Assembly: GCA_902386535.1 (NCBI GenBank) | Contig: CABMJK010000042.1 | Span: forward strand, 1 to 33,705 | DNA: 33,705 nt | Reading direction: 5' to 3' | From: Candidatus Burarchaeum australiense | GTDB lineage: Archaea > Micrarchaeota > Micrarchaeia > Burarchaeales > Burarchaeaceae | In this document: piece by piece, positions 6,398 through 11,916 of the stretch | How the letters are laid out: each line of letters begins with the position of its first letter | How positions within the stretch are numbered: position 1 is the first letter of the stretch | Notes under the pieces: generated by a model | Told to the model about the DNA's origin: nothing | Database searches by the model: none | The model's input: the letters and a program-made list of their open reading frames with translations, nothing else | Position numbers and translations under genes: made by a program

Positions 6398-7570
6398 ATG
6401 AGGCTCGCGATAGCGCACCCGTTCCTGCACGTGAAAGGCGGGGCTGAGAAGGTGGTGCTCAAAATAGCGCAGAAGTTCGACGCCACGGTTTTCTGCACCG
6501 ACTACGACCAGCACAAGACCTACCCCGAGTTTTCCAGCCTGGACATCCGCGTGCTGCCGCGCGGCCACATGACCAAGCTCTTCGCGTTATTCCCGAAACG
6601 GGCGCGCGAGGCGGCCATAGCGGGCCAGCAGTTCTGGAACTGGAAGGCGCCGGACGAGTTCGACGTCGTGAATGCGCAGGGCACGCCCAGCGAGTGGGTG
6701 AGGCACAGGAATTCGCCCGTGGCCTGGTTCTGCCACTCACCCAACCGCGAGGCCTTCGTTCTCTATGAATGGCGCCAGAGGCAGCGCAACATCGCCGAGC
6801 GCGCGGTCTACCGCTCCTTCGTGCACATGTACAAGCACTTCGAGTTCGCCACCGTGCCGAAAATCGAGCACATATTCGCCAACAGCGAGACCACGCGCGA
6901 GCGCATTGCAAAATATTTGCACCGCAAGGACGCGGAAGTGCTCCACCCGGGCGTGGACTGCAGGGAGTTCGAATGCAAGGGCTACGAGAAGTTCTTCTTC
7001 TACCCCTCGCGCATCGTGCCAGAGAAGCGGTTCGAGCTCGCCATCGAGGCTTTCGAGAAATTCAGGAAAGCGAGGAAAGCTGCGGGCGGGAAGGCCAGGA
7101 ACGAAAGATGGAAGCTCGTGCTTGCAGGCGCGCTGCACCACGGGATACCTCACCACGTGGACTACTACAACAAGCTCGCGGAACTCGCCTCCAGGGACCC
7201 GGACGTCGAGATTCTCCTGGACCTCCAGTCCAACAAGATACGCGACCTCTATGCTCGCTGCTATTCTGTTCTTTACACACCCATCCACGAGGACTTCGGC
7301 ATAGTGCCGCTGGAAGGCTTTGCCTCGTGCAAGCCAGTGCTGGCCTGGAACGAGGGCGGGCCGCGCGAGATAGTGGAAGAGGGCAAGAACGGATACCTGG
7401 TGAACAACACGAACGAGCTGGCCGCGAAGATGGCCTATCTTGCGGACAGGCCCAAGCTCGCGGAGCAGATGGGCAAGGCGGGCCGCGCCCGCGCAGAGCG
7501 AGACTTCTCGTGGGAAAGATTCCTGACGAGGTTCGGGGCAGCGTGCGAGAAGCTTAGTGCTTCTCGCTGA
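6398..7570 (+). CDS. GT4-family glycosyltransferase
   Basis: 390 aa, GT-B fold. The N-terminus MRLAIAHPFLHVKGGAEKVV is the usual donor-loop start of GT4 enzymes. The C-terminal half has the retaining-GT EX7E motif: E298 to E306 in HEDFGIVPLEGFA, followed by GGPREIV. No membrane span is evident, so a cytoplasmic or membrane-associated enzyme that transfers a sugar from a nucleotide-sugar is likely, for glycolipid, N-glycan or surface glycan. ATG 6398 is preferred because homology starts there and GGAG lies 9 nt upstream; the open frame extends back to a TTG at 6308 through the tandem repeat. It ends tail-to-tail, overlapping the opposite gene by 17 bp. Confidence 0.85.
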   Translation: MRLAIAHPFLHVKGGAEKVVLKIAQKFDATVFCTDYDQHKTYPEFSSLDIRVLPRGHMTKLFALFPKRAREAAIAGQQFWNWKAPDEFDVVNAQGTPSEWVRHRNSPVAWFCHSPNREAFVLYEWRQRQRNIAERAVYRSFVHMYKHFEFATVPKIEHIFANSETTRERIAKYLHRKDAEVLHPGVDCREFECKGYEKFFFYPSRIVPEKRFELAIEAFEKFRKARKAAGGKARNERWKLVLAGALHHGIPHHVDYYNKLAELASRDPDVEILLDLQSNKIRDLYARCYSVLYTPIHEDFGIVPLEGFASCKPVLAWNEGGPREIVEEGKNGYLVNNTNELAAKMAYLADRPKLAEQMGKAGRARAERDFSWERFLTRFGAACEKLSASR

Positions 7571-8300
7571 GCGGCGGATTGGCGAGCGCTTCCAGTTCCT
7601 GGGATTTCAGATGGCACGCGGAAGCTTCGAGAAGCGCGGTGTCCGCACGAATTTGGCTGGCCTGGGCGGCATAATCTGCCAAGGGAACTGCCGCATGCTT
7701 TCCCACGACCTCATACCCTCCTTTCACATACTCATAGTGCGAGCCTGCCAGCACGTATGCTTCGTTGGCGGCCGCATAGCACGCTGCCGCTTTTTTATAG
7801 CATGTAATTGACGCTTTCCTGTCATAGATATGTTCCGTGCTTTCGCCATTTTTCTGGCTGAAATCCGCCAAATACATGAGCAGGTGGCCCTTTGCCGCCA
7901 TCAGCTCGGCAGCCTTCCACCGGTTCGTCACGTCGGGCATTTCCTTTACGCTGTCGTAGGCAGCATCCAGCGTTTTCACGCACTCTTCATTGGAACCCAA
8001 AAGCCCGCGTATGGTGTGCAAGATCTCGATCTTGTCTCTGGGCGAGACACCCTCTGCGTCAGGCGCCAGCGCGCGGCATGCCTCCAACGCCTCGTCCATG
8101 GCGCTTTTGATTTTCGTTTCGGGATGGGAGACTTTGTCATAGAGCCTGCTATGTATGCCGCCCCTGCCGGTGCGAATCCGGTTCAGCCTCATAAACCGCC
8201 TATGGGCGCCTGCGATGGAATTGTAAAAAGAATTCGCGGTTCTGGTCCCGGCTACAACCTCCTTCTCGCCAAGCACGGGTGTTTTTGCAGTAATTATCAT
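7554..8300 (-). CDS. Hypothetical all-alpha protein, TPR-like
   Basis: 248 aa, not recognised. After a short N-terminus with Arg-rich patches the protein is almost entirely helical and Ala-rich, with TPR-like helix pairs near the C-terminus (for example KASITCYKKAAACYAAANEAY, residues about 165-185). No signal peptide or membrane span. It is less GC-rich than the sugar genes beside it. The ATG at 8300 has AGAGGTTGG upstream, and the upstream element TTTAAAAAGCCGGAAAGGC closely resembles that of the 533-aa orphan at 12010. This suggests independent transcription and possibly shared control. Confidence 0.6.
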   Translation of the reverse strand: MIITAKTPVLGEKEVVAGTRTANSFYNSIAGAHRRFMRLNRIRTGRGGIHSRLYDKVSHPETKIKSAMDEALEACRALAPDAEGVSPRDKIEILHTIRGLLGSNEECVKTLDAAYDSVKEMPDVTNRWKAAELMAAKGHLLMYLADFSQKNGESTEHIYDRKASITCYKKAAACYAAANEAYVLAGSHYEYVKGGYEVVGKHAAVPLADYAAQASQIRADTALLEASACHLKSQELEALANPPLSEKH

Positions 8301-8357: not shown

Positions 8358-9107
8358 CTAAGCCGAGTGCTCCTTCCTCGCCCTTTGCAGCTGCTCGTGC
8401 GTGCCGATGTCGAACCACTTGCCCTTGTAAACATGGCCCTTCAGCCTGGCCCTCTTGACGAGCCAGCCGATGAAATCCCCGACCCTGTCAAGCCCGCCGC
8501 CGGCCTGCGCGTACTCGGGCAGGAGCTCTAGCAGCTCCTTATTCAACACGTAGCAGCCGGTAGAAGTGAGCGTGCTCTTCGGCTTTGCCGGCTTCTCCTC
8601 GAAATCAGTCACCACGCCCTGCCTGTTCACGGCGCAGACGCCGTAGTGCTTCGCCACCTCGCGGTCCTTCACGTCCACGAGCACTATGGCATTCTCCTTC
8701 TCGTTGGCCGCTATCTCCTCCAGCAGTTTGGTGATGCCGGGCCCGAACAAATTGTCCGAGGCCATTATGAGCGTGCGCCCATTCAGCAGCCCCTTGTTGT
8801 GCATGTGCAGAAGCGCGCCCACCGCGCCCTTCTTGCTCGACTCGCTAGTGCCCTCCTCCACGAGCATCTCGACCCTTTTCTTGCACCGCATCTTCCACTT
8901 CAGCAGGAAGTTGTGGAAATTCGGCGCGAACTTCTCGTTGGTGGTGAGATAAATGACCTCGACCTGCGGGATGCAGTCGAGCTGGTTAAGCACGTGCTCG
9001 AGAATCGTCTTCTCGCCCACCTCGAGCAGGGCCTTTGGCTTGTCTTTTGTAAGCGGCCAGAGCCGCGTCGCGTATCCGCCTGCCAGCAGCACAACCTTGA
9101 GTTTCAT
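8358..9107 (-). CDS. Sugar-phosphate nucleotidyltransferase (RmlA/GlmU-N-like)
   Basis: 249 aa, Rossmann-like NTP_transferase domain making an NDP-sugar from sugar-1-phosphate and NTP in the cytoplasm. The signature LLAGGYATRLWPLTKDKPKA sits at residues 6-25 with the expected Arg and Lys (the usual GxGTR is GYATR). Further family marks are ASDNLFG (metal-binding Asp), HYGVC, FEEKP and GKWFDIGT near the C-terminus. No left-handed beta-helix follows, so it is not a full GlmU. Third gene of an apparent operon behind the WecB-like epimerase (gap 49 nt). Exact sugar and nucleotide cannot be told from sequence. Confidence 0.85.
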   Translation of the reverse strand: MKLKVVLLAGGYATRLWPLTKDKPKALLEVGEKTILEHVLNQLDCIPQVEVIYLTTNEKFAPNFHNFLLKWKMRCKKRVEMLVEEGTSESSKKGAVGALLHMHNKGLLNGRTLIMASDNLFGPGITKLLEEIAANEKENAIVLVDVKDREVAKHYGVCAVNRQGVVTDFEEKPAKPKSTLTSTGCYVLNKELLELLPEYAQAGGGLDRVGDFIGWLVKRARLKGHVYKGKWFDIGTHEQLQRARKEHSA

Positions 9108-9156: not shown

Positions 9157-10296
9157 TCACACTATCTTATTCTCCCATCTTTCCATCTTCCCTTCGAACT
9201 TCTCAATTAAATCAATTATCCTGCCCGCGCTCTTCCCGTCGCCATAGGGGTTGGGCGCCGCCCGCATCTTCGCAGCCAGCTTCCCGTCCTCCATCACCTT
9301 CCGGGTCCAATCGACAATGCTGGCCTTCTCGGTGCCCACGCACCTGTTGGCCCCGACCTCCACGCTCTCGGGCCTGTCGGTCACGTATCTTATCGTGAGG
9401 CACGGGATTTTTAGCGAGCAGCACTCCTCCTGCAGACCGCCGCTGTCGGTCAGGACGAGCTTGCTCTCGAGCATTATGCGCAGCGCGTCAGTATATTTGG
9501 GCAGGCAGGGAACCCAAATCAGGTGCTTCGCCTTCGCCAGCCTCTCGGCATAGCCATACCTCTCGGCCGCCTGCTGCGTGCTCGGCAGCACTGAGCAGAA
9601 CACCTTGTAGTCCTCGAGCGCGAGCAGGGACTCGAAAATGCCCCTCATCCTCTCCTCGTGCAGCATGTTCTCCTTCCTGTGCACTGACCAGAAGATGAGC
9701 TTCTTCTCGCCCTTCAGCCTGAACTGCTCCAGAATCGTACTCTTCTTGCGCGCAAGCTCGGCGTGCTGCAGCGCCGCATCCACCACCGTGTTCCCGACGA
9801 CGAAAATCCTGTCAGCCGGCGCGCCCTCAGATAGGAGTGCCCTCCGGTTTTTCTCGGTGGCCGCGAAGAAAAGCGCCGAGCACGCGTCGTTCGCGCGTGT
9901 GCATATCTGCTCAGGATACGGCTCCCAGGAGTTCGTGCGTAGGCCCGCCTCCACATGGCCCACTGGCACGAGCGCCAGCGCGCCCGCGAGCGATAGGAAC
10001 ATGGCAGTGAACGTGTCCCCGTGCGTGAGCAGGATGTCCGGCTTCTCCTTCTTCAATATCCTCTCGGCTTCCACCAGCATCTTCGCGCCCATCTCGGTGG
10101 CCGTGCCCCGCGCGCCGATGTCGTAGTCCGGCCTCGGCAACTCCAGGTCATCGAAAACCTCCTCGTACAGGTTGGGCGAGTAGTGCTGGCCCGAATAGAG
10201 TATTTTCGTCTCGTGGCCGCGCTTCAGGCTCTCGCGCACGAGCGGAGCCATTTTGATTGAGCAGGCCCTCGTACCAAACGCATGCATTATTTTCAT
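9157..10296 (-). CDS. wecB: UDP-N-acetylglucosamine 2-epimerase-like protein (WecB family)
   Basis: 379 aa, non-hydrolysing UDP-GlcNAc 2-epimerase family, which interconverts UDP-GlcNAc and UDP-ManNAc for surface glycans. Residues aligning with known active-site positions are present: K15 in SIKMAPL, D94 in THGDTFT, E116 in HVEAGLRT, E129 in YPEQ, H206 in SVHRKEN; DSGGLQEE and NPYGDG follow. Two oddities: the usual GTRPE is GTRAC, and the PEExxR helix has one extra residue before the Arg. ATG 10296 is preferred to the GTG at 10311 because that GTG lies inside the GGTGAGG ribosome binding site. It follows the RHH-nucleotidyltransferase by 35 nt. Confidence 0.83.
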   Translation of the reverse strand: MKIMHAFGTRACSIKMAPLVRESLKRGHETKILYSGQHYSPNLYEEVFDDLELPRPDYDIGARGTATEMGAKMLVEAERILKKEKPDILLTHGDTFTAMFLSLAGALALVPVGHVEAGLRTNSWEPYPEQICTRANDACSALFFAATEKNRRALLSEGAPADRIFVVGNTVVDAALQHAELARKKSTILEQFRLKGEKKLIFWSVHRKENMLHEERMRGIFESLLALEDYKVFCSVLPSTQQAAERYGYAERLAKAKHLIWVPCLPKYTDALRIMLESKLVLTDSGGLQEECCSLKIPCLTIRYVTDRPESVEVGANRCVGTEKASIVDWTRKVMEDGKLAAKMRAAPNPYGDGKSAGRIIDLIEKFEGKMERWENKIV

Positions 10297-10331
10297 TTTA
10301 TCAAACCTCACCTGAATGGTCGCCTATTTCA

Positions 10332-11180
10332 TTAGCCCAATTCCTTCTCGGCCCTCTGCAGGCTCGCCCTGTCGCCCAAGTCCACCCACTTGCCGCTGAA
10401 CACGTAGCCCCGCATGAGGCCCTTGCGCGCCAGCGACGGGAAGACATCGCGCTCGAGCATTCCCTGCCCGGGCAAAGAATCGAAAATCCTTTCGCTCAAC
10501 ACATACACGCCCGCGTTAACCAGCCTGCTCTCGCCCTTTTGTTTTGCTTTTTCCTCGAACTTCACAATCTTCTCGCCTTCGGTCTCGGCCACCCCATAGC
10601 GGCCCTCATCTCGCACAGACTTCAATGCCATGGTGGCCAGTGCGCCGCTCTTGCGATGGGCTTCAAGCATGGCACGCAAATCGAAATCGCACAAAACATC
10701 TCCGTTGAGGACAACAAACGTTCCGTTCATTTTTTCCTCCGCATTTTTCACAGCGCCTGCAGTCCCGAGCGGTTTGCTTTCCCGCACAAAATCAATCTCA
10801 ACCCCAAAAGCCTCTCCGTTCTTGAAATACGCCGCAATCTCCTCGCCGCTCTGCCCAATTGCAAGCACAATGTGCTTCACGCCGTTGGCCTTCAGCCATT
10901 CAATTGTCCTTTGCAGGATGGGCTTGCCGCCAACCTCGACGAGCGCGCGCGGAAGATGGTAAGTGGAAGGCGTGAGGCCCCTTTTCTCCCCGCCGCACAG
11001 AACCAGGGCGCGCGTCTCGCTCCCGCCGCCCAACGCCTTCATCAACAGCAATTCCATGGCGTGCGAGCGCGACTTCACGTTGGTGCCGTCCACCCGCGCG
11101 TCGACGCGCTTCAGCAGTCCCGCGTCTATGCTGATTGCAACCTTCTCCTTCCCGTGCTTTCCCGCGCTTCCACCACCCAT
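10332..11180 (-). CDS. Ribbon-helix-helix domain fused to sugar nucleotidyltransferase
   Basis: 282 aa. Residues 12-50 form a CopG/MetJ-like ribbon-helix-helix: strand KVAISID, helix AGLLKRVDARV, then SRSHAMELLLMKALGG. From about residue 57 a NTP_transferase domain follows with LNGD (metal Asp161), PLGTAGAV, VNAGVYVL and GKWVDLGD. Its N-terminal signature is altered: GGxGTRLxPLT...PKA reads CGGEKRGLTPS...LPRA, so catalysis is uncertain. Cytoplasmic. ATG 11180 is chosen over 11186 because AAGGT then has usable spacing. It heads an operon with the WecB-like epimerase and a second nucleotidyltransferase; three 10-bp repeats cover its start region and suggest that it controls its own operon. Fusion is read directly; regulation is inferred. 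Confidence 0.8.
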   Translation of the reverse strand: MGGGSAGKHGKEKVAISIDAGLLKRVDARVDGTNVKSRSHAMELLLMKALGGGSETRALVLCGGEKRGLTPSTYHLPRALVEVGGKPILQRTIEWLKANGVKHIVLAIGQSGEEIAAYFKNGEAFGVEIDFVRESKPLGTAGAVKNAEEKMNGTFVVLNGDVLCDFDLRAMLEAHRKSGALATMALKSVRDEGRYGVAETEGEKIVKFEEKAKQKGESRLVNAGVYVLSERIFDSLPGQGMLERDVFPSLARKGLMRGYVFSGKWVDLGDRASLQRAEKELG

Positions 11181-11210
11181 TGTCATACCTTTTCATACTA
11201 TTTCATACCG
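11181..11210. promoter_or_regulatory. Three tandem 10-bp repeats, candidate RHH operator
   Basis: The plus strand reads TGTCATACCT, TTTCATACTA, TTTCATACCG: three adjacent units of exactly 10 bp sharing TCATAC (GTATGA on the other strand). They lie between the TATA box and the start codon of the RHH-nucleotidyltransferase, over its predicted transcription start and ribosome binding site. One recognition element per helical turn is what ribbon-helix-helix dimers bind cooperatively, so this is a good candidate operator for the protein encoded immediately downstream. Confidence 0.65.
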
Positions 11211-11215
11211 CACTC

Positions 11216-11223
11216 TTTATAAA
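11216..11223. promoter_or_regulatory. Palindromic TATA box between divergent genes
   Basis: TTTATAAA is its own reverse complement. It is centred about 39 nt before the RHH-nucleotidyltransferase ATG (minus) and about 34 nt before the SdpI-like ATG (plus), so one TBP site could serve both directions with short leaders. Confidence 0.6.
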
Positions 11224-11253
11224 CCTGCCCGCCGAAAAACACGTGGTGATCGC

Positions 11254-11916
11254 ATGGACAGGCGCATGTACTATCCCTTACTCATCGTGCTGGTCATGAT
11301 TTTCATGGGCGCCTACTTCTACCCGCAGCTTCCCGCCCGCGTGCCATCGCACTGGGATGCGTCGGGCGAGGTGAACGGCTATTCCTCGCGCGCGGTCGCG
11401 GTCGTCTCGCTGCCCCTGATCGCCCTTCTGCTCTACGGCTTCTTCCTGCTCATCCCGCGCATCGAGGTCTTCAGGAAGAACGTCGAGTCCTTCTACCGCA
11501 CCTCGGGCCCGGGCTTCGTCTCTGTCTTCATGCTCTTCTTCCTCATACTCTACGTGGCCACGCTGCTCGCGGGCGTGGGCTACCAGTTCAGCATGAACTA
11601 CGTCATACTTCCCCTGCTCGCGCTGCTCTTCGGCTACATCGGCATCGTGCTGCCCACGGTCAAGCGCAACTTCTTCATCGGCATCCGCACGCCCTGGACC
11701 CTGGCGAGCGAGCGCGTGTGGAAGAAGACGCACGAGATGGGCGGCAAGGTCTTCATCGGCATGGCCGTGCTCATGCTGGTGGCGATGCTCCTGCCTGCCC
11801 ATGCCTTCTGGATTATGATGATACTCGCGCTCTTCGCAGTAGTCTGGACTTTCGTCTACTCGTACCTGGAGTTCAGGAAGGAGAAGCGGAAGGGCGAAGG
11901 GATTGACGGGCTGTAG
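11254..11916 (+). CDS. SdpI/DUF1648-family membrane protein
   Basis: 220 aa, integral membrane protein. The N-terminal DUF1648 part has a membrane span followed by the family signature LPARVPSHWDASGEVNGY (residues about 25-42). Further spans lie near 45-65, 87-107, 115-133 and a pair near 165-205. The SdpI-like part contains KRNFFIGIRTPWTLASERVW. Bacterial SdpI is an immunity and signalling protein for the SdpC toxin, but archaeal homologues are common and of unknown role. ATG 11254 follows GGTGATC directly; the longer open frame upstream lacks homology. It shares a palindromic TATA box with the divergent sugar-nucleotide operon. Confidence 0.85.
   Translation: MDRRMYYPLLIVLVMIFMGAYFYPQLPARVPSHWDASGEVNGYSSRAVAVVSLPLIALLLYGFFLLIPRIEVFRKNVESFYRTSGPGFVSVFMLFFLILYVATLLAGVGYQFSMNYVILPLLALLFGYIGIVLPTVKRNFFIGIRTPWTLASERVWKKTHEMGGKVFIGMAVLMLVAMLLPAHAFWIMMILALFAVVWTFVYSYLEFRKEKRKGEGIDGL

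Follow-up and report, generated by a model that had tools for sequence, protein, structure and literature searches.

The locus

The window analyzed here (the whole stretch of DNA, 33,705 nucleotides from Candidatus Burarchaeum australiense) carries on its minus strand a three-gene arrangement headed by a gene encoding a ribbon-helix-helix (RHH) domain fused to a sugar nucleotidyltransferase (NTase) fold, with tandem GTATGA hexamers immediately upstream. The features concerned, all on the minus strand, are:

10332–11186: RHH-NTase fusion gene, 284 aa (ATG at 11186, stop at 10332; placed from the ORF and its orthologues)
11031–11147: RHH domain, residues 14–52 (predicted DNA-facing strand residues K15, A17 and S19; helices 22–31 and 40–51; invariant R40-S41)
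10335–11012: NTase-fold domain, residues ~59–284 (GTAG, NGD (D163), EK, NAG and WxD (D269) retained)
10947–11000: degenerate nucleotide-binding signature LCGGEKRGLTPSTYHLPR, residues 63–80, in place of xxGGxGTRLxPxTxxxPK
11216–11223: TATA-box-like sequence TTTATAAA, just 5' of the repeats, recognized by inspection
11203–11208: predicted operator hexamer 1, GTATGA
11193–11198: predicted operator hexamer 2, GTATGA, 10 bp after hexamer 1
11183–11188: predicted operator hexamer 3, GTATGA, overlapping the start codon (ATG, 11186–11184)
9157–10311: operon gene 2, non-hydrolysing UDP-GlcNAc 2-epimerase (WecB; TIGR00236, 8.3e-96, above cut-off)
8358–9107: operon gene 3, NTase with near-canonical signature LAGGYATRLWPLTKDKPKALLEV

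The initial annotation placed an ORF at 10332–11180. It is real, and yields a 282-aa protein from the second ATG (11180), but it lies on the minus strand, and the ATG at 11186 is also possible, giving 284 aa. The gene order fusion-WecB-NTase is found at five other loci as well. At the operon end (7554–8300) is a 248-aa ORF with no Pfam match. A divergent plus-strand gene for an SdpI/DUF1648 membrane protein (~11254–11916) shares the intergenic region 11187–11253, and the predicted operator may affect this gene too.

Domains and fold of the fusion protein

The C-terminal domain was recognized by Pfam (NTP_transferase, PF00483, residues 60–282, 1.2e-36), as the initial annotation had it. Single-sequence evidence for the RHH domain, which had been placed at residues 12–50, is weak, since RHH_1 (PF01402) scores 15.7 bits on the window protein alone, under the Pfam cut-off of 20.5. 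The domain nevertheless held up at the family level: a profile of the N-terminal 55 residues from 22 members matched two NikR structures in the PDB, that of E. coli (1q5v) at 2.3e-8 and 2bj1 at 4.5e-6, and RHH_1 was matched at E <= 0.01 by 15 of these N-terminal domains. In an AlphaFold2 monomer model built with 15 family members (mean pLDDT 85.8), an extended stretch is followed by helices at residues 22–31 and 40–51, the order required for an RHH, so that the loss of the claim through a missing fold did not come about. The strand-helix-helix arrangement, alternating DNA-facing strand residues and an RS-A motif in helix 2 are those of the RHH (MetJ/Arc/CopG) superfamily. For the remainder of the model, Foldseek matches included tlr0611, GMPPB, VTC1 and MurU, with the GMPPA/GMPPB complex among the best; the fold is that of an NTase (GT-A like).

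Distribution of the fusion

A class-wide profile search of 301 genomes recovered at least 49 RHH-NTase fusions in at least 46 Micrarchaeia genomes, representing at least 13 families, and when 236 genomes sampled from a second DPANN phylum were searched, starting from a Woesearchaeota genome, at least 75 proved to have them. The domain pair, for which a search of DPANN genomes had been proposed, is therefore widespread there. Relatives carrying it are 85, 52, 48 and 34–43% identical to the window protein. An assembly artefact or isolated frameshift, the other outcome that could have undone the original proposal, is ruled out by an orthologue 83–85% identical in another Burarchaeum genome and by the many distant copies: the fusion is conserved in relatives. 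In the one genome of Sulfolobales (Thermoproteota) that was checked, only unfused NTases were found. Searches of the open-access literature turned up no description of an RHH-sugar-nucleotidyltransferase fusion.

The tree of Micrarchaeia fusions has two large groups and weak deep support, and is compatible with a single clade (p-AU 0.47). Some genomes have more than one copy. A second fusion is present in the window genome (L003:1477–2274, minus strand, = G000:C24:15209–16006); this paralogue has GTATTA-type repeats and adjoins RmlD-like and dTDP-sugar isomerase-like genes and another NTase. One Woesearchaeota genome (L278) has three, of which two, at G301:C1:501785–502594 and 510210–511001, have degenerate signatures, and the third (L276) keeps GVR..PK; TAATAC-N4-GTATTA occurs at one of the two degenerate copies.

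Repeats upstream of fused genes

The upstream regions of fused genes differ between genera except for tandem GTATGA hexamers. In the window, three of these fill the stretch from just past the TATA box to the start codon. With the 49 Micrarchaeia promoters grouped at 60% identity and spacings scanned, a same-orientation GTATKA pair at period 10 was found in 16 of 29 promoter clusters. Periods 6–9 and 12–19 gave none and period 11 one; periods 20, 21 and 30, near helical multiples, gave one to three clusters each. Dinucleotide-shuffled promoters had a 10-bp pair in a mean of 0.005 (maximum 1) of 49. The same period appears in the second phylum (12 of 34), giving a combined consensus of GTATGAnnARGTATGA. 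An exact 10-bp pair is missing from about half of the fused promoters.

In 501 kb of DNA around fused genes, 25 pairs fall in the 10.2 kb of fused promoters and three in the remaining 491 kb, a density ~400-fold above that of the surrounding DNA; the three outlying pairs are all ~0.9 kb from a fused start, just beyond the fused gene's 3' end. Genome-wide, the strict pattern is restricted to the region preceding the fused gene in ten genomes, namely the window genome, its sister, G141, G142, G143, G167, G171, G283, G284 and G291, and in the window genome GTATGA pairs remain confined to the fusion promoter even when one mismatch is allowed. Among genomes with no recognized fusion, sites were found in 0 of 9 Micrarchaeia and 0 of 20 from the second phylum. 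The position of the repeats varies: in the window and among its closest relatives they follow TATA and precede the ATG, and many second-phylum promoters have the pair upstream of a TATA-like box.

The best evidence that it is the RHH of the fused protein that reads GTATKA sites is covariation between a residue of its strand and a base of the operator. Where the middle DNA-facing strand residue is Ser, the paired sites are GTATTA (8 of 8); Ala or Thr at this position goes with GTATGA in 28 cases and with mixed sites in 3, never mainly with GTATTA (Fisher 3e-8, a p-value inflated by related sequences). The Ser/GTATTA combination is on at least three separate branches: the paralogue clade, L190, and L262 from the other phylum. 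L185 and L188, tree neighbours of L190, carry Thr. Most fusions have a recognition strand of the form R-x-T-x-T, as in the aligned NikR sequence; the corresponding positions in the window protein are K15-A17-S19. Conservation of the sites and this covariation strongly support specific binding of the predicted operator by the RHH strand residues. Together with the 10-bp-spaced repeats in the gene's own promoter, the covariation is independent support for the DNA-binding part of an earlier suggestion that this could be a metabolite-sensing repressor.

Loss of the catalytic loop

The motifs described in the initial annotation (LNGD, PLGTAG, NAGVY, CGGEKRGLTPS and PRA) are all present, and its rewritten signature has turned out to be common to the whole fused family in Micrarchaeia rather than an oddity of one gene. 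The window protein has CGGEKRGLTPS..PR in place of GTR..PK, and so lacks the GxGxR(x)nPK of active enzymes. It retains both metal-binding Asp residues, in LNGD (D163) and WVD (D269), and may therefore have residual catalysis. The GTR loop is absent from all 47 aligned Micrarchaeia fusions: inspection of the alignment rows shows Arg in the GTR column only in L208 and L214, and in several fusions this region is shortened by 8 or more residues. Among unfused or flanking NTases, 53 of 54 have the GTR Arg, the exception being a fused gene truncated at the edge of its contig. In the same 47 fusions, the first metal-binding Asp is kept in all, the EKP-motif Glu in 37 and Lys in 42, and the GTAG-type loop is largely kept; the WxD Asp is kept in only 10. 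Since the first Asp, EK and GTAG are retained while GTR is lost, the nucleotidyltransferase pocket looks to be under selection in Micrarchaeia fusions, and the catalytic loop not.

Homologues in the second phylum, which the single-sequence annotation had no means of seeing, include many with an intact catalytic loop: 28 of 34 sampled fusions, mostly best-scoring copies, have the full GTR..PK signature. Loss of GTR in Micrarchaeia fusions versus its retention in most of these suggests that in the window protein an enzyme has probably become a sensor, and that its second-phylum kin are probably bifunctional enzyme-repressors. The simplest reading would be an active enzyme-repressor ancestor, with the Micrarchaeia branch becoming a sensor.

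Neighbouring genes and candidate regulon

Recurrent neighbours of the fusion are a cupin protein (11 loci), NAD-sugar epimerases (8), phosphomanno/glucomutase (6), FBP aldolase/phosphatase (5) and GlpX (4). In one Micrarchaeia family (L209–L222) genes for a two-cupin protein and a CPDase/2'-5' RNA ligase-like protein often lie divergent to the fusion or come after it.

Non-self promoter sites were found at genes for FBP aldolase/phosphatase (G006, G393), GlpX (G058), GAPDH (G003, G024), enolase (G424), phosphofructokinase (G445), phosphomanno/phosphoglucosamine mutase with a divergent NTase (G298, G299), a glycosyltransferase (G298), dihydrolipoyl dehydrogenase (G024) and alanine dehydrogenase (G425). 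Their agreement in function is striking, the grouping having been made after the genes were seen. Other non-self matches are within ORFs or adjoin genes of unidentified role. Across whole genomes the looser pattern is about as frequent as a reversed-pattern control and not clearly above it, so single non-self sites are only candidates. With few of them, with matches in ORFs or by genes of unidentified role, and with counts near the control, the case for a regulon is weaker than that for autoregulation; in the window genome, no target beyond its two fused genes was found even with one mismatch. Operator sites and neighbours nonetheless point to sugar-nucleotide and gluconeogenic genes, in keeping with the operon for sugar genes that had been envisaged.

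Two further arrays were seen in one genome. At L121:1501–1526 (minus strand; G008:C12:6429–6454) three tandem hexamers come directly after a TATA box and before a small zinc-ribbon (Elf1-like) ORF, and at L139 (G008:C73:3184–3219) four tandem hexamers follow a TATA-like box and precede no obvious gene.

Possible mechanism and its alternatives

The conserved RHH-NTase fusion is probably an unrecognized repressor sensing sugar metabolites. For the window protein in particular, we consider it likely, from sequence and predicted structure, that it is a one-component, self-regulating transcription factor, with its RHH on the 10-bp GTATGA repeats and an NTase-fold sensor domain, repressing its own operon. 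RHH dimers would sit side by side on successive hexamers; with direct repeats one helical turn (10 bp) apart, neighbouring dimers would share one face of the DNA. Because the repeats run from just after the TATA box up to the start codon, bound protein should occlude the transcription start, blocking expression of the RHH-NTase, WecB and NTase genes. The C-terminal domain, lacking the GTR..PK loop and with its pocket kept, would most likely bind an NDP-sugar or sugar-1-phosphate, and binding would probably change DNA affinity, as end-product feedback; an end product acting as co-repressor is our guess. Ligand binding, the direction of the response, and repression rather than activation are all inferred for the window protein.

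A different possibility is a trigger enzyme of the PutA type, whose NTase domain would still produce an NDP-sugar and whose RHH would repress at low substrate. The intact GTR..PK of most sampled second-phylum fusions, which share the RHH and operator, would fit this, as would LNGD and WxD in the window protein itself; the missing GTR loop in the window and all aligned Micrarchaeia fusions, with its sometimes long deletions, the loss of WxD from most of them, and the presence in the window operon of a separate NTase with a near-canonical signature make it unlikely here. Location of the pair upstream of a TATA-like box in many second-phylum promoters suggests that activation is possible there, by recruitment of basal factors. 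That the window protein is such an activator is quite unlikely: its repeats, like those of its closest relatives, are placed where binding should block.

The RHH domain might also serve for oligomerization only, with the GTATGA repeats bound by another regulator. RHH domains are obligate dimers, and NikR, a user of GTATGA half-sites, occurs in some of these genomes. The sites track presence of the fusion, though, and it is the middle strand residue of the fusion's own RHH that covaries with the operator base. NikR_C is absent from most genomes that have sites, the window genome among them, and NikR was for this reason rejected as binder of the window repeats. Oligomerization alone is thus very improbable. 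Hardly any weight can be given to chance, in which case the repeats would simply reflect AT-rich promoters and the fusion would have no regulatory meaning: near-control counts of the looser pattern would agree with this, but the strict period, its rarity in shuffles and the enrichment in fused promoters do not, and both the second-phylum pairs and the residue-base covariation contradict it.

More broadly, we lean slightly towards a regulator that serves central carbon and sugar-nucleotide metabolism throughout DPANN: a trigger enzyme of RHH and NTase, decayed in Micrarchaeia to a pure NDP-sugar/sugar-phosphate sensor, with a NikR-like strand on 10-bp repeats, and with operator base and strand residue switched after duplication (the GTATTA paralogue in a rhamnose-type cluster). 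Gene control in DPANN archaea is little known, and this would be a regulator family found in many genomes, for which an operator and a specificity residue can be predicted and whose candidate targets lie in glycolysis, gluconeogenesis and glycan-precursor synthesis. It may also offer, within one architecture, an evolutionary series from a probably active enzyme-repressor to a catalytically dead sensor.

Comparison with known systems

The sugar-1-phosphate nucleotidyltransferases RmlA, MurU, GlmU and GMPPB share the fold and most pocket residues with the window protein, which differs in its rewritten GTR..PK loop and extra RHH. Dimers of ParR and of other RHH proteins likewise bind short direct repeats in tandem arrays, but ParR acts in plasmid partition and has no metabolite domain.

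NikR of E. coli is the closest RHH in the PDB by profile, with a GTATGA half-site and a ligand domain C-terminal to its RHH. Its operator, GTATGA-N16-TCATAC (PMC7055735), has inverted half-sites 16 bp apart, unlike the direct repeats every 10 bp of the fusion, and its C-terminal domain binds nickel where the fusion has an NTase; the window protein has neither NikR_C nor an operator of this form. Human GMPPA, an inactive NTase paralogue that binds the NDP-sugar product and serves as a feedback sensor (PMC11228364), is a precedent for an NTase-fold product sensor lacking activity, although it works via protein contact with GMPPB and has no DNA-binding domain.

The trifunctional PutA of E. coli, an N-terminal RHH fused to a metabolic enzyme, is an autogenous repressor of its own regulon (PMC5293562); the window protein likewise has an N-terminal RHH and a predicted operator in its own promoter. 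PutA, however, is a proline dehydrogenase/P5C dehydrogenase that stays catalytic and switches to the membrane, while the window lineage has a catalytically degenerate NTase fold. The sequences argue against a PutA-like, substrate-relieved active enzyme in the window protein and for one in the second phylum. The RHH-NTase would be a new family among enzyme-derived, ligand-responsive repressors.
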